This document shows positions 1,245 through 37,541 of a stretch of 40,006 nt of DNA, one piece after another (the stretch's first letter is position 1; the number at the start of each line of letters is the position of its first letter). Origin of the DNA: a virus; the IMG/VR virus record IMGVR_UViG_3300022745_000078, positions 1 to 40,006 of that record; one strand, 5' to 3'. The notes under the pieces are model-generated. The model saw nothing but the letters and a program-made list of their open reading frames with translations. It had not been told where the DNA came from and made no database searches. A program made the position numbers and the translations under genes.

Positions 1245-1272
1245 TTGAGCGCAAGGCCGGATGGTGTATAAT
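1245..1272 (+). promoter_or_regulatory. Promoter of the rightward accessory cassette
   Basis: TTGAGC (1245-1250), 16 bases, then a perfect TATAAT (1267-1272). The ATG at 1279 follows the -10 after only six bases, which places the start point at or next to the start codon, a leaderless transcript. No Shine-Dalgarno is visible for this ATG, which supports that reading. Confidence 0.55.
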
Positions 1273-1278
1273 GCGGAT

Positions 1279-1794
1279 ATGAAAGCAAAGAGCCTCAGAA
1301 ATACGCTGGATGTTGTTTGGGCTACGCTGCCCGAATTGCTGGAATATCCCGAACACTGGCAATCGCTTGATGTTGACTATGAGCCGCCGCGTGTAGAGCG
1401 TGTGTTTCTTGATGAGGCTGGTATTCGTATTTGCTTGCACGTCATCCACAAAACTGACAAGCCATGCTTATTCCATCCGCATCCTTGGCCATCCATCATG
1501 GCAATCATGGAGGGTTCATATCTCAACGTATCGGGATTTGAAGGTAGCAACGAGCGCATGGAAACCATCTATACGGCTGGTAGTTGCTATGAAATGCTTG
1601 ACCCTACAGAATGGCATAGCGTTTCGCCTATCACAGAAACCGTAAAAAGCATTATGATTATGGGTGAGCAGTGGGGTTTTCATGGCGGCAGGAAGCCCAC
1701 AAAGAAACTTCAGCCGCTTTCTCGTGAGCGAAAATTAGAAATCATCAACGATTTTAAGGCGCTGCTTACTGTAAAGGAAGCGGTGAGTGTATAA
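1279..1794 (+). CDS. Cupin-like protein of unknown function
   Basis: 171 residues from ATG 1279; an in-frame ATG at 1261 would sit inside the promoter and is rejected. The middle reads like a cupin barrel: a histidine cluster CLFHPHPWPS followed by a glycine-bearing strand (IMEGSYLNVSG), and 55 residues later a second histidine motif (DPTEWHSVSP) suited to metal binding. The C-terminus is basic and helical. No precise family was recognised. It is the first gene of a rightward cassette placed between attP and the lysis genes, opposite to late transcription. That position suggests a lysogenic-conversion (moron) gene with its own promoter. A metal-binding enzyme or sensor is plausible; substrate unknown. 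Confidence 0.65.
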   Translation: MKAKSLRNTLDVVWATLPELLEYPEHWQSLDVDYEPPRVERVFLDEAGIRICLHVIHKTDKPCLFHPHPWPSIMAIMEGSYLNVSGFEGSNERMETIYTAGSCYEMLDPTEWHSVSPITETVKSIMIMGEQWGFHGGRKPTKKLQPLSRERKLEIINDFKALLTVKEAVSV

Positions 1795-6775: not shown

Positions 6776-8437
6776 TTATGCTACTAGATTATTGACGTAA
6801 CTCGCCATAGCCGCCGCCATGCCGTCATAGCCGCTGTTCTGGTTGTATTTGTAGGTCGTACCCGAAAGCAGCGAACCCGAAGCGATTGAGCCTAAATGCG
6901 CTCCATCTGCCGCGTTTATCTGATAAGCCGTTGCCCTGCTCCACGATGCCGGATAGGTCGCATCTTGCGTGAATGTGAGCGTATTCATTGGAGCGTAATA
7001 GAAATCATATGGCGCACCGCTTCTCGCCAAGATCGACGCGTTCCACTGGCCGCGTTTTGATGTGTCGGTGGTCGCTCCCGTCGTGCCAAGCGCGGAATTG
7101 AATGGGGCTTGTGTTGAAGCTGGACTAGCGTTGGTGGCCGATGTGATATAAGGGTCAATCGTGCGATAGAATCCTTTTGCACCCCACGTTCCTTCCCAGT
7201 AAGAGCGATGCGTAGAGAGGTATCCCTCCATAGAGGCAACACTGAGCGCCGAATTGCCTACCCAGTCATTTACGCCACGCGAGATGCAATAATTATTGAT
7301 ACGAAGACCGAGCGCCTTGCATGCCTCTAATGCTGTTTTGTAACGCGTATTGGCGGTATGGCTTAGAAGGTCTCCAGAAACACCGACGACGCAAAGGCCA
7401 ACTTTATTAGCAAAGGCCCGGCCATTCGTTCCCTTGCACCCAAGGATGTCGCCATTCCCGTCCGTCGAATTGACGCCGATGCCTCGTGAATCTGAAACGT
7501 CTACAGATGACACAAGTTTGATGGTGCTGTCTGAAAGCTTGCCGAACATCAGCGCTGCGCCATAAACCTGCGTCGAGGTTATGCCGTTCCACAGCCGCGT
7601 TTCTGGCAAGGATGGCGTATTGGTGAACCCAGCGCCGCCCGCATTCTTAAAGCCAGCCGTGACTACGCTTCCCGTCAAGGTCAACGCATAGTTTGCAACG
7701 ACACTGCTTTCGTTTCTGGCGTCATGGAAATACGCGTTCTTTGCCGCTGTAACGCCGTTAAATGTGGAAATCCAGTTTCCGCCGCCCGCATTGATCGTGA
7801 GACTGTTGATAGCGCCCGCTGATAGAACGGGAGTAGCGGTCGCGCCATACCCCAGAACCGCACCGCCTGCTGCCAAACCCGTACCCGGTACGGTAGCACT
7901 CGCGCCAAGTTGACCCTCACCATTCCACGGAACAGTCTGATGCGACACAAGGCGATTGATAGTACCAGCCGTACCGCCAATAACGTCCACGATCTCGTGA
8001 TATTTATCGCCATTCATAGCGGGCGTCGGCATGACGAACTTGAATACACAGTAACCGCCCGTTGCCATGGTGTACGATGCGCCGCCTAATGTATTCGACT
8101 CATTCGCGACACATGTTCCCGTGATAACCGAGCCGCTGCCCCATTTACGCAAGACGGGCTGCACCGTTAATGTCTCGTTGCCAACCTGTGTTCCGCCCGC
8201 GATGCCTGCCCAGTTCGTATATAAAAGATACAACTCGATAAATCCGCCAGCGGAAGTGATAGAAGAATCGAGAGTGATTGGCCGGTTGATGACGGAGCAT
8301 CTGTATTGATTCGCGGATGATGTAAAGCTGCTAGGGAAGATGTTATTGATGCCGCTGGCGATGTAGAGAGGCGTAGTGTTATTCACTGATAGCGCTACGG
8401 AATGGCCGCGCGTCCTAGCCCGATTACGAACAACCAT
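6776..8437 (-). CDS. Tail fibre-associated SGNH/GDSL esterase
   Basis: About 553 residues from ATG 8437 (GGGGGAAG upstream; an earlier TTG is rejected). The N-terminal 290 residues are beta-rich and virion-like. From about 310 the SGNH blocks appear in order: VSDSRG (nucleophile Ser near 317), VVGVSGD (block II glycine), RGVNDW (block III Asn near 390) and DGAHLG (Asp and His near 511 and 514). These proteins deacetylate or de-esterify surface glycans. It lies directly upstream of the spike and likely works with it. The catalytic reading is by motif only. Confidence 0.68.
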   Translation of the reverse strand: MVVRNRARTRGHSVALSVNNTTPLYIASGINNIFPSSFTSSANQYRCSVINRPITLDSSITSAGGFIELYLLYTNWAGIAGGTQVGNETLTVQPVLRKWGSGSVITGTCVANESNTLGGASYTMATGGYCVFKFVMPTPAMNGDKYHEIVDVIGGTAGTINRLVSHQTVPWNGEGQLGASATVPGTGLAAGGAVLGYGATATPVLSAGAINSLTINAGGGNWISTFNGVTAAKNAYFHDARNESSVVANYALTLTGSVVTAGFKNAGGAGFTNTPSLPETRLWNGITSTQVYGAALMFGKLSDSTIKLVSSVDVSDSRGIGVNSTDGNGDILGCKGTNGRAFANKVGLCVVGVSGDLLSHTANTRYKTALEACKALGLRINNYCISRGVNDWVGNSALSVASMEGYLSTHRSYWEGTWGAKGFYRTIDPYITSATNASPASTQAPFNSALGTTGATTDTSKRGQWNASILARSGAPYDFYYAPMNTLTFTQDATYPASWSRATAYQINAADGAHLGSIASGSLLSGTTYKYNQNSGYDGMAAAMASYVNNLVA

Positions 8438-8763
8438 CAATCTTCCCCCTCGCTGAAGCTGATGAGAAGCGTGCCGGATGTCGAGCCGTCATAGGCGATG
8501 GCGCTGAAATGCGTTACACCATCGCGAAGCTCGTATGCGATAGGAGGTGCGCCAGCTACGAGAGGAAGGCAAGTCCCAGAGCCGTACAGCTTGGTCGTTC
8601 CGTCTTCGGTGGCGCTGGCTGAAACAGTAGAGTCGCCGAATCGCACGATGATGTCGGTTGTTAAAGCCCGCATCTCAGCCTGCCGCGAGCCGCCAGTCGC
8701 GCGGGCAGAAGTTGCGGTGCTTACCGCCAGCTTGTAAGAAAGGGCTGGTGTTTTCATGACCAT
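8437..8763 (-). CDS. Hypothetical structural protein
   Basis: 108 residues, beta-rich, with a short repeated style of strands (GTTKLYGSGT, GSTSGTLLISFSEGED). Not recognised. AGGA lies eight bases before the ATG. It overlaps the esterase start by one base (TGATG type), so the pair are probably translated together. Possible adaptor or fibre-attachment protein. Confidence 0.55.
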   Translation of the reverse strand: MVMKTPALSYKLAVSTATSARATGGSRQAEMRALTTDIIVRFGDSTVSASATEDGTTKLYGSGTCLPLVAGAPPIAYELRDGVTHFSAIAYDGSTSGTLLISFSEGED

Positions 8764-27772: not shown

Positions 27773-28690
27773 CTATCCGTTAAGAACGCTGGTTTTGCCG
27801 CGATAGCTTTCCCAGTTGAAAATGAGCAGCTTTCCACCATTCTCTTTCATTCGGTCGATGACCCGCTCTCCAGCATATTCACTTAGCCCCTCCATACCTA
27901 AATTACTTATTAAGATGGTTGGCTTCATGGACTCATAACGTCCATTTATGATGTCAAATAAAATGTTTTTTTCTGTATCGCTGCCAAACTGCACACCAAG
28001 CTCATCAACGATCAAGAAATCAGGACGAACGAATGATGATATGACCGAATCTTCACTAGATTTGCTGTCATTTCGGTATGTGTCTTTTACTTTTCTCAGC
28101 ATTTCTGCTGTTTTAACGTACTTGCAGTAGTGAGAATCGTAACGCTTGCCGTTTGACTCGTCCTCAATCGAACGCTCGATGATTCGGCGAATGATTCCAA
28201 TCGCAAGATGAGTCTTTCCGCTTCCTGCGCTGCCACAAAGGATCATTCCCCTCCCAGTCTTCAAAGCGCTTAAATATCCATCAGCGTATTGTTCGCATAT
28301 TTCTTTCTTTTTTTTAGCATCGTCATTGACGGGAAGATAATCCTCAAAACCCTTTAATCTGTAGCGTTCAGGAACATCCGCATTTCGCATTTTTGCCTCA
28401 AAACTAGAGCGCATTTTATTTGCTTTTTCCTGCGGGTCGATATTTCGTTGTGCCGCTGAATAGCCTGCTTTATTAGCTCCCTCATCATCCTCATCTTTGC
28501 AAGACGGGCACATGGTTCCTTGGCTTTCACCACCGCTAAAAAAAGATACATATTTTTGCGTGAACGCGCCGTGCTTATCGCAGTACGCCTGTCGCTCAAA
28601 AACCAGTGGAACGCTTACCCTTTTAGGTAACGTCGAATCCATCTGTTCTGGCGTAATAGTCTTGCTCTCTGAAGTTGTGGTGTCTTGCAT
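27773..28690 (-). CDS. Helicase loader, DnaC/IstB-type AAA+ ATPase
   Basis: 305 residues. N-terminal zinc-binding cluster (CDKHG near 37, CPSC near 61), then an AAA+ domain with Walker A at 153-160 (GSAGSGKT), Walker B at 225-230 (FLIVDE), and sensor-1 region TILISNLG. This is the organisation of DnaC-like loaders that deliver host DnaB helicase to phage origins. It follows the initiator gene with a 68-base overlap, the O-P arrangement of lambda. The end of the gene has a normal TAG stop. Confidence 0.88.
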   Translation of the reverse strand: MQDTTTSESKTITPEQMDSTLPKRVSVPLVFERQAYCDKHGAFTQKYVSFFSGGESQGTMCPSCKDEDDEGANKAGYSAAQRNIDPQEKANKMRSSFEAKMRNADVPERYRLKGFEDYLPVNDDAKKKKEICEQYADGYLSALKTGRGMILCGSAGSGKTHLAIGIIRRIIERSIEDESNGKRYDSHYCKYVKTAEMLRKVKDTYRNDSKSSEDSVISSFVRPDFLIVDELGVQFGSDTEKNILFDIINGRYESMKPTILISNLGMEGLSEYAGERVIDRMKENGGKLLIFNWESYRGKTSVLNG

Positions 28691-29417
28691 TTGGTTTTCC
28701 TTTCGGCTTGTTTTGGTTTGCTTGTGCTTTGTCTGGTATTCTGCTTCGTTCGGCTAAGGCTTGAAGGACAGCACCTTCAAAATATTTCAACGATCTCGGC
28801 GGCGCTGTGGCGCGTGACGCCATGACCTTAATGGTCGGGAATATGTCTAATTCAGGGTCAGCACCTGCATTTAGCCACGCATGGACGGCACTCGTGTTCA
28901 GCGGAAGCGCTGTAATGGGCATGAGGATTTTCTGAATTTCTGCTGACACGCTAGAAAAATCCCAAACGGGTTTCGCGCGTATATCATCAGCATCTATTCT
29001 TTCTTTCTTATCTTCTTTACGTTCTTTAGATGTGGTTAGTTGCTGGTTAGTTGCTGGTTGATTGCTGGTTGATGTTGTGGTTGATTGGCTGGTTGATTCT
29101 TCTTCCTTAGCTTGATATTCTTCATAGTTTACAACAGTTACTATGCTATACTTGCTGGTTGATTCTATGGTTATTTCGTTGGTTGATTTTAGCCTTTCGA
29201 TGCAGGTGCGTAGCGACTGCTCAGTAATTCCGCACTTCTCAGCCCATTCTTTTCTTCCAAAGATTACTTGACCTCTTTTCACAGAAACGCCCTTCCAATT
29301 TCTGTCTTCCCAACATGCGTTAATCAGAAGGTGAACCCATAGCGACACCATGTTAGGTTCGCTTGCCCAGCGCCATTCACGCATGCTACGGTGGATTTTT
29401 ATCCATCCCTCAGACAC
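28623..29417 (-). CDS. Replication initiator (O-like, winged helix)
   Basis: 264 residues from GTG 29417 with GGGAGGG five bases upstream. Residues 1-115 form the winged-helix domain of phage initiators (WIKIHRSMREW; VIFGRKEWAEKCGITEQSLR; ITIESTSKYSIVTVVNYEEY). A Ser/Thr/Gln/Asn-rich linker encoded by repetitive DNA follows, then a helical C-terminal domain that should contact the loader. The DNA repeats inside the gene are candidate initiator sites. Confidence 0.78.
   Translation of the reverse strand: MSEGWIKIHRSMREWRWASEPNMVSLWVHLLINACWEDRNWKGVSVKRGQVIFGRKEWAEKCGITEQSLRTCIERLKSTNEITIESTSKYSIVTVVNYEEYQAKEEESTSQSTTTSTSNQPATNQQLTTSKERKEDKKERIDADDIRAKPVWDFSSVSAEIQKILMPITALPLNTSAVHAWLNAGADPELDIFPTIKVMASRATAPPRSLKYFEGAVLQALAERSRIPDKAQANQNKPKGKPNARHHNFREQDYYARTDGFDVT
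29033..29188. repeat. ori: Iteron-like repeats, candidate replication origin
   Basis: TGGTTGATT and the variant TGGTTAGTT occur about six times in tandem at 29033-29098, at roughly 11-base steps, and again at 29156-29164 and 29180-29188. They lie inside the initiator gene and encode its low-complexity linker, as lambda's origin iterons do within O. The neighbouring sequence at 29100-29155 is AT-rich, as an unwinding element would be. Confidence 0.5.
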
Positions 29418-30346: not shown

Positions 30347-30583
30347 TTACGCTTCCCCCATCAGCACATATCTGGCAACGCGGTGCGGCTGGCCGTCTGG
30401 CGTGTAATCCCATGCCCAATGCGTCTGCACGTCATGGCCGTTTCTGCGGAGGTCGTACACACGCGCAGAAGGACGCAGGATATGCAGCTTGCTCGTTATG
30501 TCGATGCTGGTAATACCGCGCTTGCGGCGTTGCAGCGCTTTCAAAAGGATGTCGCATTGTACGGCAGTTGAATTACCTGTCAT
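30347..30583 (-). CDS. Helix-turn-helix protein
   Basis: 78 residues from ATG 30583, with GGAGGG upstream. Pattern GNSTAVQCDILLKALQR, then GITSIDITSKLHILRPSARV and YDLRRNGHDVQT, matches the small HTH_39-type proteins found in phage early operons. Likely DNA-binding; target unknown. Its start lies inside the previous gene's end. Confidence 0.65.
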   Translation of the reverse strand: MTGNSTAVQCDILLKALQRRKRGITSIDITSKLHILRPSARVYDLRRNGHDVQTHWAWDYTPDGQPHRVARYVLMGEA

Positions 30584-30893
30584 CCGATCCCTCCACATAA
30601 ATGAGGTCTGAAAAAGCGATTTTCTTTTTTTTGAGAATGTATTTCAGCTTCCTAAGGGCTTTATGCTCGACCTCGTTGACCCTCCCCTTAGAAATCCCAA
30701 AGAATAGGCCAATTTCTTCGCACGTTTTTCCTTCAGATTGAGCGGCAATAGACCTTCTTTCCGCATAATGGCTGGGTCGCGAATCTCGCGAAAACTCAAA
30801 AGTCAGCCGCGCAGCGTTATCACGCGATAAGTCGTTAATGCCATAAGCTGCCCGCGCAGAAATAAGTGGATTAGGGAATGTGGCGCTGGTCAT
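30573..30893 (-). CDS. Sigma-70 region 4-like DNA-binding protein
   Basis: 106 residues from ATG 30893 (GGAG about ten bases upstream; overlaps the preceding stop as ATGA). Residues about 55-95 (CEEIGLFFGISKGRVNEVE, then HKALRKLKYIL) are very like sigma region 4.2, the helix-turn-helix that reads -35 elements. No region 2 is present, so it cannot be a full sigma factor. It may compete with or redirect host sigma, or regulate phage promoters. Confidence 0.68.
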   Translation of the reverse strand: MTSATFPNPLISARAAYGINDLSRDNAARLTFEFSRDSRPSHYAERRSIAAQSEGKTCEEIGLFFGISKGRVNEVEHKALRKLKYILKKKKIAFSDLIYVEGSDDR

Positions 30894-31090
30894 TTGTGAT
30901 ATGCTCCATCTGCAAACAGGCGTTCGATTTCCTTGCGTTTCAGGCGCACTGCATAGGCCGGAATGCCAAGCATCAGCGCCACCTCCTGATCCACCCATTC
31001 AATCGGCGTTTTGCGGTGCTTGTTGAGCGATATTTTACGCTTCAGCATAACGACATTCTCCTCACCCCAAATCTCGCTGTTGACGTTCAC
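30890..31090 (-). CDS. Hypothetical small basic protein
   Basis: 66 residues from GTG 31090, which overlaps the upstream stop (GTGA). A second possible start, ATG 31048, has GAGGAG nine bases before it and would give 52 residues. Basic, with helical elements (WVDQEVALMLGIPAYAVRLK) suggesting a small DNA-binding fold. Function unknown. Confidence 0.55.
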   Translation of the reverse strand: MNVNSEIWGEENVVMLKRKISLNKHRKTPIEWVDQEVALMLGIPAYAVRLKRKEIERLFADGAYHK

Positions 31091-32116: not shown

Positions 32117-32338
32117 TTAGTGGGTGGTGTTGGCCGTGTATTTGAAATCGTCCGGCGTGTACTTAATTTTTTTACGCGATGCCAAGTCCATGAATGCAAT
32201 AATTGCCCAGCTAGGCATGTTTTGTCTGTGCTCCCAAAGGCGCAATGCGTCGGAAGTGCAATCGGTGTGACCGGCTTGCTTTAACTCAGTATGTGCAGCG
32301 GCTCGACCGCCGAATTTTTCTACGATTGGAAATGTCAT
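32117..32338 (-). CDS. cro: Cro-like / YdaS-type repressor
   Basis: 73 residues. Helix-turn-helix layout with TELKQAGHTDCTSDALRLWEH as the recognition region, resembling small YdaS-type Cro analogues. It is transcribed divergently from the repressor across a shared operator region. Its ATG follows the -10 hexamer (CATAAT) after only six bases, so its message should be leaderless. No ribosome site is seen. Confidence 0.7.
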   Translation of the reverse strand: MTFPIVEKFGGRAAAHTELKQAGHTDCTSDALRLWEHRQNMPSWAIIAFMDLASRKKIKYTPDDFKYTANTTH

Positions 32339-32343
32339 GACTT

Positions 32344-32374
32344 AATTATGTACGCGATGTACGCAATTAGTCAA
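32344..32374 (-). promoter_or_regulatory. Leftward early promoter (PR-like) with operator O1
   Basis: Minus strand: TTGACT (32374-32369), 18 bases, CATAAT (32350-32345); a 16-base alternative TACATA exists at 32352-32347. The operator GTAC-GCGAT-GTAC (32350-32362) lies inside the spacer and touches the -10, in a larger palindrome AATT-NN-GTAC-N5-GTAC-NN-AATT (32344-32368). Repressor binding here would shut off cro, replication and, later, the late genes. Confidence 0.65.
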
Positions 32375-32387
32375 GTACAAAAAATAC
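32375..32387 (+). promoter_or_regulatory. Operator O2 (imperfect)
   Basis: GTAC-AAAAA-ATAC: the same spacing as the other sites with one base changed in the second half. It lies between the divergent promoters, just upstream of a repressor-gene -10 (TATAAC, 32389-32394; -35 candidate TTAGTC 32367-32372). Confidence 0.45.
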
Positions 32388-32410
32388 CTATAACAACAAA
32401 AAGAATTTTG

Positions 32411-32423
32411 GTACCGAATGTAC
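32411..32423 (+). promoter_or_regulatory. Operator O3, overlapping the repressor start codon
   Basis: GTAC-CGAAT-GTAC with perfect halves; the repressor ATG (32418-32420) lies inside it. A site placed here would let Cro or excess repressor block repressor synthesis, as OR3 does in lambda. Confidence 0.55.
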
Positions 32424-32894
32424 ATGAGACAAGAAAAAGATATAATTTCTCAAAATATAAGAGAAAGCGCCAAAAAGCTCGGCATCACAAAAGTAATTGA
32501 TGCGTCTAGGCTTTGCGGCTTTGAATCTCCAACGGATTACAGAAATTTCTGTAATTACTGGAATGGCGATAGAACGCCAGATATGCCAACCCTTAAAAAG
32601 ATAGCCAATGGATTAAAAACCACATGGCAACGACTTTGTGGCGAAGAAGATGGGGCATCATCAACGCCAAAAGATGCAAGGCGAGTATTGGTTTTAAGCC
32701 ATGATGCTATATTAGAAGCGCTTGGCAAGGGGGCTATAAAAGCCACAAAACAAGCAATCTATGAATTGACTGAATTACTTTTTGATTTTTGCGTAAAAAC
32801 ATCACAAGAGCCAACAAAGCAAATGGCCGAACTGATAATCAACTCAGCAAAAAAGGGTATGAGCAATGGACGAGCGGACGGAGGGGGAAATTAG
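32418..32894 (+). CDS. cI: Phage repressor (CI-like), small, without peptidase domain
   Basis: 158 residues. HTH region near 20-75: GITKVIDASRLCGF, then RNFCNYWNGDRTPDMPTLKKI and ANGLKTTWQRLCG. The remaining half is helical (AIKATKQAIYELTELLFDF) and probably dimerises. The Ser-Lys S24/LexA cleavage domain of lambda CI is absent. No strong ribosome site; a second ATG lies two codons in. Placed divergent from cro over shared operators, and followed by accessory genes. Confidence 0.72.
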   Translation: MYMRQEKDIISQNIRESAKKLGITKVIDASRLCGFESPTDYRNFCNYWNGDRTPDMPTLKKIANGLKTTWQRLCGEEDGASSTPKDARRVLVLSHDAILEALGKGAIKATKQAIYELTELLFDFCVKTSQEPTKQMAELIINSAKKGMSNGRADGGGN

Positions 32895-33042
32895 CAATGT
32901 GATATATACCAAGTACTGGAAGGAGCAAACCCTGAACGCTTTGTCGCGTCAGTGTATGCAACCTGAGAAATCTAACAATGGGAATTTTTCCCGCAAGAGA
33001 CGATTGAGAATAGGGTTTAACATTTTTTTAGACAGGAATTGA
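32866..33042 (+). CDS. Small basic protein overlapping the repressor gene end
   Basis: 58 residues from ATG 32866. Basic (FSRKRRLRIGF), polar, no motif recognised. It overlaps the repressor by 29 bases and stops two bases before the next gene's ATG, so it could be translated by coupling. No clear ribosome site. Confidence 0.4.
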   Translation: MDERTEGEISNVIYTKYWKEQTLNALSRQCMQPEKSNNGNFSRKRRLRIGFNIFLDRN

Positions 33043-33044
33043 AT

Positions 33045-33347
33045 ATGAAGAAAATTGTAGCAATAGCCGTGTTAAGTGTCGTTTTGCCAGCGGGCGCACA
33101 TGCTCAGGTGCAAGTAGATGGATATATGCGTCGCGATGGAACGTATGTGCAGCCCTATGTCCGCTCTGCGCCGGATGACCAGAAGTGGAACAATTACGGC
33201 TCCGGCAATGGAAATGGCATGAGTTCGCCTTATAGCCGCGATAGCGATAGCGATGGCATTCCTAATTTCCAAGATCGCGATGACGATAATGACGGAACGC
33301 AGGATAACCAAGACAATAGTCAATATGGCACAGGGTATGGCAACTAA
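33045..33347 (+). CDS. Secreted Asp-rich protein with thrombospondin-type-3-like motif
   Basis: 100 residues from ATG 33045 (AGGA seven bases upstream). Sec signal peptide (KIVAIAVLSVVLPAGAHA-Q), a Gly/Asn/Ser-rich middle, then an Asp-rich loop set (DSDSDGIPNFQDRDDDNDG, DNQDN) like thrombospondin type-3 calcium-binding repeats. Exported after lysogenic expression. It could alter the cell surface, as phage exclusion or conversion proteins do. No family member known to me fits exactly. Confidence 0.6.
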   Translation: MKKIVAIAVLSVVLPAGAHAQVQVDGYMRRDGTYVQPYVRSAPDDQKWNNYGSGNGNGMSSPYSRDSDSDGIPNFQDRDDDNDGTQDNQDNSQYGTGYGN

Positions 33348-33371
33348 CCCCTTCCCGCCAGCGTGATTTTA

Positions 33372-33653
33372 ATGGAAAATGAAAAAATGCAAACAATCGA
33401 AGAAGAAGCGGAAATAGCGCCAATAAATGCCCCTTCCCTGTTTATTGATGGCTTCCATGGCATGGCCGTTATAAATGGCATGGCGCGGCTGAACCTACAC
33501 GAAGACCGCTATAATCCCATTTCAGGCAAGACAGAGCGCCATATAGTCACACGTTTGGTGTTCCCTGTGGCTGGCCTTGCTGGTTTTATCGAAGGCCTAC
33601 AAAAAGCCAACGAATCAATATCGTCTAGCATTTTAACGGAAAATAAAGAATAA
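33372..33653 (+). CDS. Hypothetical protein in the immunity cassette
   Basis: 93 residues from ATG 33372 (GTG 33363 and ATG 33387 are alternatives, no ribosome site is decisive). Acidic start, then a beta-rich domain (LFIDGFHGMAVINGMARLNL; VTRLVFPVAGLAGFIEGLQ) vaguely like DUF3467. Unknown role. Confidence 0.5.
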   Translation: MENEKMQTIEEEAEIAPINAPSLFIDGFHGMAVINGMARLNLHEDRYNPISGKTERHIVTRLVFPVAGLAGFIEGLQKANESISSSILTENKE

Positions 33654-33663
33654 TAGGGGTAGC

Positions 33664-33969
33664 ATGAAGCAAGCCAATTTTTTTCGTGTAAGGACTCCGG
33701 CAAACGATCATGCCCACGTTTATAAAGGCGGCTTTGGTGGAAACGGTGGAGATGGGGGCGACATTATGGAGCTTCGCGTTCAAAGACTAGAAGAGGACAT
33801 GAGAGAAGTGAAAAACACACTTTCTAGGCTTGAACCTTTGATCGTAAGGATTGACGAGAGGCAAAAGCACCTTCCTACCAACACCACCCTGATTATTAGC
33901 CTCATTACTATTTTTGCCGCAGGATTAGCAATTCCGCAGCTATCCAATATAATTGCGGCATTCAAGTAG
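33664..33969 (+). CDS. Coiled-coil membrane protein (XhlA-like)
   Basis: 101 residues. Gly-rich start, then a coiled coil (LRVQRLEEDMREVKNTLSRLE) and one membrane segment near the end (LIISLITIFAAGLAIPQL). An internal ATG (33766) with a G-rich ribosome site would start just before the coil, giving 67 residues. The layout recalls XhlA-type membrane proteins. In this position (between repressor and the PL-like promoter) an exclusion or immunity role is as likely as lysis. Confidence 0.58.
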   Translation: MKQANFFRVRTPANDHAHVYKGGFGGNGGDGGDIMELRVQRLEEDMREVKNTLSRLEPLIVRIDERQKHLPTNTTLIISLITIFAAGLAIPQLSNIIAAFK

Positions 33970-33992
33970 GGGCGGCATTATGGAAGTACGCC

Positions 33993-34124
33993 ATGAAGAG
34001 AGAATTTATCTGGTTCTGCAATGGCTTCGCTGAAGGGTGGCGGGAAGGCTTCGAGCTTTGGCGAGCCGTGTTTCTATTGGATTTCCGAACTATAAAGCGC
34101 TGGATAAACAAACCCCGCCACTGA
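33993..34124 (+). CDS. Small protein ending in the terminator
   Basis: 43 residues from ATG 33993, with GGAAG six bases upstream. Aromatic-rich, amphipathic (FIWFCNGFAEGWREGFELW). Its TGA lies in the loop of the terminator at 34111-34137, so translation would run through the hairpin. Existence uncertain. Confidence 0.4.
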   Translation: MKREFIWFCNGFAEGWREGFELWRAVFLLDFRTIKRWINKPRH

Positions 34125-34137
34125 GCGGGGTTTTTTT
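34111..34137 (+). terminator. Rho-independent terminator ending the repressor cassette
   Basis: AACCCCGC pairs with GCGGGGTT over a 6-base loop, followed by seven Ts. Strong. It ends the rightward transcript carrying the repressor and its accessory genes. Confidence 0.8.
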
Positions 34138-34219
34138 GTTGTTTATCATAAGCAAGCCTTTATAGTTGTGGACGGGAGCGCGAACTCCCGTCCTTAACCC
34201 TGACACAGAAAGGCATAAT

Positions 34220-34402
34220 ATGTCAGAGAAACCCGAAGTAAATGCGGCTCTTATTCAAGCTGCGGCTACAATAACCGCTTCCATTATGAGTAAAGACATA
34301 CGACAAAGCGCTACAGATACAGACCTCGTGGGTCTTGCTGCATCCGTTTATTCCCGCGTCCATAATCTCATTACAAAACATCATAGCGATAAGTATTCTT
34401 AA
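34220..34402 (+). CDS. Hypothetical small protein
   Basis: 60 residues from ATG 34220 (GAAAGG upstream; a longer GTG start is rejected). Helical with Ala/Ile-rich region (LIQAAATITASIMSKDIRQ). Lies after the immunity terminator, so it needs its own promoter, not seen. It converges with the next gene on the other strand with a 4-base overlap. Confidence 0.5.
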   Translation: MSEKPEVNAALIQAAATITASIMSKDIRQSATDTDLVGLAASVYSRVHNLITKHHSDKYS

Positions 34403-34611
34403 TTAGGATGTTTTACATAGAGGGGCTCACCAGAAGCGCCTTTAATGTATACTTTTCCTGCCAACTCACGAGCGGCGGCGATAACCTCGCCGTCGTTCGT
34501 TCCAAACACAAAATCTGAATATTTACGCGCCACATCTACTGCGTCTGCTCCCTGATAGTGCTGCGCTACTGCCAGCTTCAAGCACTCTAATCTCAATTCT
34601 TCAAGGTTCAT
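34399..34611 (-). CDS. Hypothetical small phage protein
   Basis: 70 residues with an ideal GGGAGGA before ATG 34611. Opening LEELRLECLKLAVAQHYQ and the end VYIKGASGEPLYVKHPN resemble small early proteins of many temperate phages. Function unknown. It is the only minus-strand gene between the repressor and the recombination operon. Confidence 0.6.
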   Translation of the reverse strand: MNLEELRLECLKLAVAQHYQGADAVDVARKYSDFVFGTNDGEVIAAARELAGKVYIKGASGEPLYVKHPN

Positions 34612-34629
34612 AAAATCCTCCCATGTTTA

Positions 34630-34661
34630 GCAGGGGCGCTAACCGGAAGTGGCGCCCCTGC
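34630..34661 (-). promoter_or_regulatory. Stable hairpin in the leader of the minus-strand gene
   Basis: Ten-pair perfect stem (GCAGGGGCGC with GCGCCCCTGC) over a 12-base loop. It lies about 18 bases upstream of ATG 34611 with no T tract, so it would fold in the 5' leader of that message and could modulate translation. Confidence 0.4.
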
Positions 34662-34734
34662 CCGTAACGTATATCCCCCAACTACAAGAGATACCCTCAT
34701 CATACACGGCCTTTTGCGAGATGGAAGAAAAAAA

Positions 34735-34786
34735 GTACATCTAGTACGTTTTTTATCTTGACATAAGCGTACGGGCTGTACATAAT
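34735..34786 (+). promoter_or_regulatory. Rightward early promoter (PL-like) with two operators
   Basis: TTGACA (34758-34763), 17 bases, CATAAT (34781-34786): a strong promoter. Two GTAC-N5-GTAC sites flank and fill it: GTAC-ATCTA-GTAC (34735-34747) upstream of the -35, and GTAC-GGGCT-GTAC (34769-34781) in the spacer and -10. The segment GCGTAC-N5-GTACATAAT is shared with the cro promoter. The repressor should therefore silence both. Confidence 0.72.
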
Positions 34787-34814: not shown

Positions 34815-35687
34815 ATGAAATTCGATGTATTCAACAGATTCACAGGCGCGGTGCAGTTCACGGCTGAGATCGAATGTGCCGAGGATGAGTCGTTCAGCAT
34901 TAAGCTAGGCCTTGCCGTGAAATGGGCAATTAAAGCACGCGCAAATCTGGCAGGCGCAAATCTGGCAGGCGCATATCTGGCAGAAGCATGTCTGGCACGC
35001 GCATATCTGGCAGAAGCAAATCTGGCAGAAGCATATCTGGCACGCGCAAATCTGGCAGGCGCATATCTGGCAGGCGCATATCTGGCAGGCGCAAATCTGG
35101 CAGGCGCATATCTGGCAGAAGCATATCTGGCACGCGCAAATCTGGCACGCGCAAATCTGGCAGGCGCATATCTGGCAGAAGCATATCTGGCACGCGCAAA
35201 TCTGGCACGCGCAAATCTGGCAGGCGCAAATCTGGCAGGCGCATATCTGGCAGAAGCATGTCTGGCAGGCGCATATCTGGCAGAAGCAAATCTGGCAGGC
35301 GCATATCTGGCAGGCGCAAATCTGGCAGGCGCAAATCTGGCAGGCGCAAATCTGGCAGGCGCATATCTGGCACGCGCATATCTGGCAGGCGCATATCTGG
35401 CAGGCGCAAATCTGGCAGGCGCAAATCTGGCAGGCGCAAATCTGGCAGGCGCAAAAGGATTAAAAAATCCGCCGATCTCTTTTGGATGTGTCGGAAAATA
35501 TAAACGAACAGGATTCGTCATTATTGAAAACGAGGAAATTGTCGTGCGCCTTGGTTGCTTCAAAGGAAGTGAAAAAGGGGCCTTGAAAGCTGTTGGCGAT
35601 AAGTACGGCAAGAAATCGGGATATGTCGCCATGATTAAGGCGGCCTGCCTTGTGGCGCGTGAATATGCACAAGAAGCGAAGGAGTGA
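34815..35687 (+). CDS. Pentapeptide-repeat protein, 34 near-perfect repeats
   Basis: 290 residues; GGAGG five bases before ATG 34815 (GTG 34809 rejected). Residues 1-43 form a beta-like N-terminal domain. Residues 44-213 are 34 units of (N/Y/C)LA(G/E/R)A, which would form a right-handed quadrilateral beta-helix about the size of B-DNA. Residues 214-290 are a C-terminal domain seen in other phage pentapeptide proteins (VVRLGCFKGSEKGALKAVGD). Related folds (MfpA, Qnr) mimic DNA and bind gyrase. It is the first gene of the repressor-controlled operon, so it is made at once on infection or induction. Target unknown. Confidence 0.85.
   Translation: MKFDVFNRFTGAVQFTAEIECAEDESFSIKLGLAVKWAIKARANLAGANLAGAYLAEACLARAYLAEANLAEAYLARANLAGAYLAGAYLAGANLAGAYLAEAYLARANLARANLAGAYLAEAYLARANLARANLAGANLAGAYLAEACLAGAYLAEANLAGAYLAGANLAGANLAGANLAGAYLARAYLAGAYLAGANLAGANLAGANLAGAKGLKNPPISFGCVGKYKRTGFVIIENEEIVVRLGCFKGSEKGALKAVGDKYGKKSGYVAMIKAACLVAREYAQEAKE
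34944..35453 (+). repeat. 15-base tandem repeat, 34 copies
   Basis: The unit is (AAT/TAT/TGT)-CTG-GCA-(GGC/GAA/CGC)-GCA; only codons 1 and 4 vary, the rest is identical at DNA level. 35101-35160 and 35161-35220 are identical 60-base blocks, i.e. a recent four-repeat duplication. Such identity points to ongoing slippage or recombination with expansion and contraction. Confidence 0.9.
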
Positions 35688-36726: not shown

Positions 36727-36882
36727 GTGGACAATCAAACCGTGGCAGAAATGACTGCCTCTGGCATAGCGCGTGATTTTTCGTGGTTATGCAAAATGAT
36801 TAAAGAACAGCCTGAGTTGGCGAAGTCAGTTCATGGCGATATTGAGGAAATCAAACAGGAATTGGAAGGGTTGAACCAATGA
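36727..36882 (+). CDS. Small hypothetical protein
   Basis: 51 residues from GTG 36727, chosen because GGAGG stands six bases upstream; an earlier ATG in frame would lie inside the previous gene and give a very basic leader. Helical and acidic. The stop overlaps the ERF start. Confidence 0.5.
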   Translation: MDNQTVAEMTASGIARDFSWLCKMIKEQPELAKSVHGDIEEIKQELEGLNQ

Positions 36883-37541
36883 CAGAAAAAACAGAAATTA
36901 ATGATTTGCTGCATAAAATACAGCAGGTTTTAAATGTGCCAAAATCTAGGAAAGCCAAGCATTACAGCTATCGCTCTTGCGAGGACATCTTGGATGCGGT
37001 GAAAAAATTACTCCCAGAGGGCGCAACCATATTGCTAACGGACGAAATCATCTACACGGGAAACCGTTTTTACATCAAGGCACAAGCCTGCCTTCGATTT
37101 AAGAGCGAATGCACTTGCGCCTATGGGTGGGCTAGAGAGCCTGAAACAAAGCCCGGTATGGATGAAAGCCAGATTACAGGCGCGGCGTCTAGCTATGCAC
37201 GCAAATACGCGCTTAATGGGCTTTTCTGCATAGACGATATTCAGGATGCCGACGCGCAGAACGACATTACCATTGCTAAGCCGCAAGAGCCACAGTCCAT
37301 TTTTGCCACCTCAGAAATGCGCGATACATGGAAGCAGAACGTCATGAAAGCGTTTGATGACCAGCCAACCGTAAAGCAGTTGATAGATACGGCGCAGCTC
37401 TACAAAGCGAAGCTGGAGCAAATGCAGGCGAACCCACAAGACTTGAAAGCGCGTAACGAGGTAAATGAATACTTCAAGAAGCGCAAAGCAGATATTGAGG
37501 CCAAGCCGGAAACATACCTAAACGATGAAATTCCGTTCTGA
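36879..37541 (+). CDS. erf: ERF-family single-strand annealing protein
   Basis: 220 residues. The ERF core is clear: YSYRSCEDILDAVKK, TILLTDEIIYTG, and GAASSYARKYALNGLF-CIDD around 105-125. Promotes annealing of complementary DNA in phage recombination and replication repair. The C-terminus ends NDEIPF, like the acidic-Phe tip of bacterial SSB that recruits partner proteins, and such tips are unusual on an annealase. It heads the core recombination genes of the rightward operon. Confidence 0.87.
   Translation: MTEKTEINDLLHKIQQVLNVPKSRKAKHYSYRSCEDILDAVKKLLPEGATILLTDEIIYTGNRFYIKAQACLRFKSECTCAYGWAREPETKPGMDESQITGAASSYARKYALNGLFCIDDIQDADAQNDITIAKPQEPQSIFATSEMRDTWKQNVMKAFDDQPTVKQLIDTAQLYKAKLEQMQANPQDLKARNEVNEYFKKRKADIEAKPETYLNDEIPF

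Follow-up and report, generated by a model that had tools for sequence, protein, structure and literature searches.

The window, the whole stretch of DNA analysed here, corresponds to an entire IMG/VR record (40,006 nt) and contains five GTAC-N5-GTAC sites that are very probably the operators of a phage lysogeny repressor, a single repressor silencing both early promoters. Three of the sites (OR1 to OR3) lie between the divergent switch genes and two (OL1 and OL2) at the promoter of the pentapeptide operon, with 2.4 kb between the two regions. The initial annotation had located all five correctly, four as exact copies and one with a single mismatch, and its proposal of a two-promoter regulon in a lambda-like OR/OL layout is supported by the clustering of the sites, by their common register to the -10 hexamer and by the gene map (Table 1). 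We propose that the 156-aa HTH protein would bind all five sites as a dimer. A protein bound at sites in the spacer or flanking the -35 would exclude RNA polymerase from both early promoters, which OR1 and OL1 would thus silence; the leftward replication operon and the rightward recombination operon would thereby stay silent during lysogeny. Repressor synthesis itself would be limited by OR2 and OR3, which are placed across the weak promoter and the start of the repressor gene.

Table 1. Candidate operators, promoters and principal genes of the switch region, in window coordinates.
Feature	Position	Strand	Remarks
Candidate operator OR1, GTACGCGATGTAC	32350-32362		leftward-promoter spacer; base 32350 is -10 position 1
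Candidate operator OR2, GTACAAAAAATAC	32375-32387		one mismatch; abuts leftward -35 upstream, between divergent genes
Candidate operator OR3, GTACCGAATGTAC	32411-32423		overlaps ATG 32418 and abuts ATG 32424 of repressor gene
Candidate operator OL2, GTACATCTAGTAC	34735-34747		10 bp upstream of rightward -35
Candidate operator OL1, GTACGGGCTGTAC	34769-34781		rightward-promoter spacer; last base is -10 position 1
Leftward early promoter	32345-32374	minus	-35 TTGACT (32374-32369), 18-bp spacer, -10 CATAAT (32350-32345)
Rightward early promoter	34758-34786	plus	TTGACA-N17-CATAAT, best sigma-70 match of the genome
Possible repressor-promoter -10, TATAAC	32389-32394	plus	sequence inspection
Strong intrinsic terminator closing the repressor operon	34110-34133	plus
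DnaC-like and DnaD-like helicase loaders, leftward operon	27773-29417	minus
73-aa Cro-position protein, first gene of replication operon	32117-32338	minus
Short putative repressor, N-terminal HTH	32424-32894	plus	156 aa (158 aa from 32418)
Pentapeptide-repeat protein, first gene of recombination operon	34815-35687	plus	Pfam, 2e-37; strong Shine-Dalgarno, energy -16.4
Erf-like single-strand annealing protein, recombination operon	36879-37541	plus	phrog_155, E=9e-32

Eight sites in the genome match the sigma-70 promoter consensus at 10 or more of 12 positions. The rightward early promoter ranks first among them (11/12) and the leftward one ties for second (10/12), and only these two carry GTAC-N5-GTAC in their spacer. 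At both, the CATAAT -10 hexamer begins with the final C of GTAC, despite spacers that are one base apart in length, and a second site lies upstream of the -35 (directly adjoining it on the left, 10 bp away on the right). Judged from the sequence, this shared register to the -10 is the strongest argument, beyond clustering, that the sites are functional. A longer segment previously reported as common to the two promoters, GCGTAC-N5-GTACATAAT, is indeed present on the minus strand at 32364-32345 and on the plus strand at 34767-34786; since its ATAAT is part of the -10 hexamer, the extra information resides in GCGTAC-N5-GTAC alone. Sequence inspection of the region upstream of the repressor gene yielded a possible -10, for which no good -35 was seen, and a promoter-like match at 32419-32446 was rejected because its transcript would start inside the gene.

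The leftward operon encodes the 73-aa protein, an endonuclease/resolvase-like protein, a sigma-region-4 protein and the DnaD and DnaC helicase loaders. The third of these genes (30573-30998, minus strand) specifies 141 aa with a sigma-70 region 4 domain (E=2.5e-7) and is a possible late regulator. The repressor operon runs to the right from the gene of the 156-aa HTH protein through small accessory genes as far as the terminator, and the rightward recombination operon then comprises the pentapeptide protein, Erf, a Gp157/Gam-like and a NinB-like protein. Within the pentapeptide gene, near-identical 15-nt repeats of the GCAGGCGCAAATCTG type (34930-35454) are accompanied by long open frames on both strands. 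Beside the OL region, a divergent gene (34399-34611, minus strand) has a 70-aa product with a match to PF24182 (Gene 1 ring forming protein, E=1.3e-5), and its leader contains a perfect 10-bp inverted repeat (34630-34661); OL2 could also affect this gene.

The remaining gene content is that of a temperate tailed phage: the minus strand carries the portal, terminase and virion genes, the early genes lie at about 27-39 kb, and the left end of the record truncates an integrase gene. Beside the truncated integrase gene, a 20-nt direct repeat, CCTGCCCCCATTTCTGCCCC (at 694 and 896), flanks a segment resembling a tRNA 3'-end (about 831-854), and the region 690-912 resembles an attP bearing arm sites for the integrase. 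A temperate life is supported by the integrase and by these arm-like repeats, which bracket a core resembling a tRNA 3'-end. Near the attachment site, a cysteine dioxygenase-like gene (1261-1794, plus strand; phrog_4786, E=2e-9) may be lysogenic cargo.

The start of the repressor gene proposed earlier may be at 32424 rather than at 32418, giving 156 instead of 158 residues. HTH matches of its product are weak and recur in three libraries: HTH_3 (E=0.01, below the cut-off), the phrog_8 regulator (E=6e-4) and, for residues 42-80, the RstR-family model NF041951 (E=1e-3). RstR-family repressors are likewise short HTH proteins, but the 19.4 bits scored here against an NCBIfam cut-off of 80 do not place the protein among them. 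No S24 peptidase domain was matched in Pfam, PHROGs or NCBIfam, which makes induction via RecA-stimulated self-cleavage unlikely, and an antirepressor or some other route is probably needed for prophage induction. The divergent 73-aa protein is a probable lytic counterpart (putative Cro). Its ATG lies about 7 nt past the -10 and the Shine-Dalgarno energy is -0.7 kcal/mol, which amounts to no Shine-Dalgarno (compared with -16.4 for the pentapeptide gene), so that its mRNA is probably leaderless. Homologues of the repressor were found neither in phages, plasmids, viral contigs and genome contigs nor in 33 terminase-related phage records, and none of the 73-aa protein in phages, viral contigs and the same 33 records. 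Single-sequence structure models of the switch proteins reached pLDDT values of 47-50, too poor for fold searches.

 The 73-aa protein, as Cro or as the true repressor, might be the main binder, with the 156-aa protein having another role or sharing some of the sites. Its gene heads the leftward operon, and in PY54 and phiKO2 Cro and repressor can differ in their site sets; in phiKO2, however, the prophage repressor binds all five sites and Cro one, and the 73-aa protein gave no family or HTH match in Pfam, PHROGs or NCBIfam, so we regard this assignment as unlikely. With the 156-aa protein retained as the candidate binder, the mode of recognition can also be considered. The GTAC half-site is truly self-complementary, as had been pointed out, and an inverted repeat is consequently indistinguishable from a direct one in the sequence. 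A repressor reading the sites head-to-tail as well as head-to-head, polarity then coming from flanking bases or neighbouring molecules, seems unlikely.

The tetranucleotide GTAC itself is not over-represented in the window (62 occurrences against about 76 expected from trinucleotides), and at this frequency roughly 0.1 N5 pairs would be expected by chance genome-wide. Five exact GTAC-N5-GTAC were counted in the record: the two promoter regions (200 bp in total) hold four, and the remaining one (7962-7974) is within a structural ORF (6776-8440, minus strand). In an unbiased dyad scan covering 256 4-bp arms and 15 gaps (0-14 bp), no dyad except GTAC-N5 reached two or more occurrences in each of the two promoter regions, and none but GTAC-N5 formed two separate clusters anywhere in the genome. 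The clustering is far beyond chance: 2,000 dinucleotide shuffles of both regions never produced a dyad present two or more times in each. A position weight matrix trained on the five sites scored them at 15-18 bits and the next best position at 9.6, a separation that is partly circular. Elsewhere the motif is sparse: six copies are spread over the 33 terminase-related records (about 860 kb), no record having more than one, and each falls within a mechanically called ORF, a background of one copy per about 140 kb that lies in coding DNA. The motif is thus not as frequent elsewhere in the phage, the outcome that would have counted against the initial annotation, and its two clusters have no equivalent in these related records. 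Relatives identified by helicase loader (36-45% identical) likewise showed no GTAC-N5-GTAC clusters.

Viral contigs were scanned for the full promoter-operator pattern and gave seven stretches, all of which we read as chance. Three of the seven (those with ORFs listed) lie inside a terminase gene, and the other four have one other conserved sequence in common and lack a second site nearby. Among the matches listed for tandem sites, repetitive coding DNA predominates, and the few clusters inspected outside long ORFs, in L028, L097, L071 and L047, are not recognisably between divergent switch genes. Two of these contigs are related and share a GTAC-rich intergenic segment (L028, 3950-4060; L097, 260-370) with a hairpin, GTACTCTCTCTAAAGAGAGAGAGTAC, and several GTAC-N5-GTAC; lacking recognisable flanking switch genes, it is possibly an unrelated regulatory or origin element.

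Paracoccus, Microcystis and Rhizobium phages carry relatives of the portal protein (24-26% identical), and Rhizobium and Caulobacter phages have relatives of the pentapeptide N-terminus (57-64% identical), which makes an alphaproteobacterial host likely. The alphaproteobacterial LexA box is GTTC-N7-GTTC and the CtrA box TTAA-N7-TTAA; neither is found at the switch, and GTAC-N5-GTAC has the spacing of neither. The clusters are also absent from the terminase-related phages, where a host factor might recur if the hosts were shared. It is thus very unlikely that the sites belong to a host regulator timing or silencing the phage early promoters, even though host regulators such as CtrA act on phages in alphaproteobacteria (PMC9437464). 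Least credible of all are a chance cluster and a motif for DNA modification or restriction: the shuffles speak against chance, and GTAC is a known restriction site, yet restriction would thin the sites, not gather four in 200 bp at a fixed promoter register. A methylation motif of related form, RTAY-N5-RTAY, does exist in Helicobacter (PMC12679398), and this was the one match in the literature searched, where GTAC-N5-GTAC was not found as an operator under the spellings tried.

Operators of a phage repressor thus remain the preferred reading, and the circuit that they would form has known counterparts. Lambda likewise combines a cro-side replication operon, a repressor operon and a second repressor-controlled promoter, oriented as the repressor gene, that leads into recombination genes; it differs in its three OL sites, cleavable CI and 17-bp operators, whereas here there are two OL sites and a short repressor without S24 domain. 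In the immB regions of the telomere phages phiKO2 and N15, three OR sites likewise lie between cro and the repressor gene, two OL sites are found at a second promoter region beyond the repressor gene, and one repressor serves all five (PMC4997575, PMC4488713), but their operators are 16-18-bp palindromes of other sequence, against a 13-bp palindrome here. No telomere-phage repressor was matched in searches with the switch proteins of this phage. The cro and cI mRNAs of the related phage PY54 are leaderless (PMC4488713), as predicted here for the 73-aa gene. In Rhizobium phage RHph_TM3_3_14B (MN988496), a cro-like gene and a repressor gene are also followed later by a pentapeptide gene (N-terminus 64% identical), and a palindrome, ACAAATTTGT, sits directly on TTGAC at two promoter-like places, where it may be regulatory like the sites described here. 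That phage differs in its putative operator, in its S24-type repressor and in switch proteins without similarity to ours. The operator sequence GTAC-N5-GTAC seems new, and the circuit already known.

Sequence alone has pointed to the probable immunity operators of a temperate phage not described before, and they offer a clean promoter pair for tests. An OR/OL layout served by orphan proteins agrees with the view that the circuit outlives its components, and with a repressor that is apparently not cleavable one must ask by which route the prophage is induced. If the predicted binding is true, the 156-aa protein and its sites would constitute a new repressor-operator pair for bacterial genetics.
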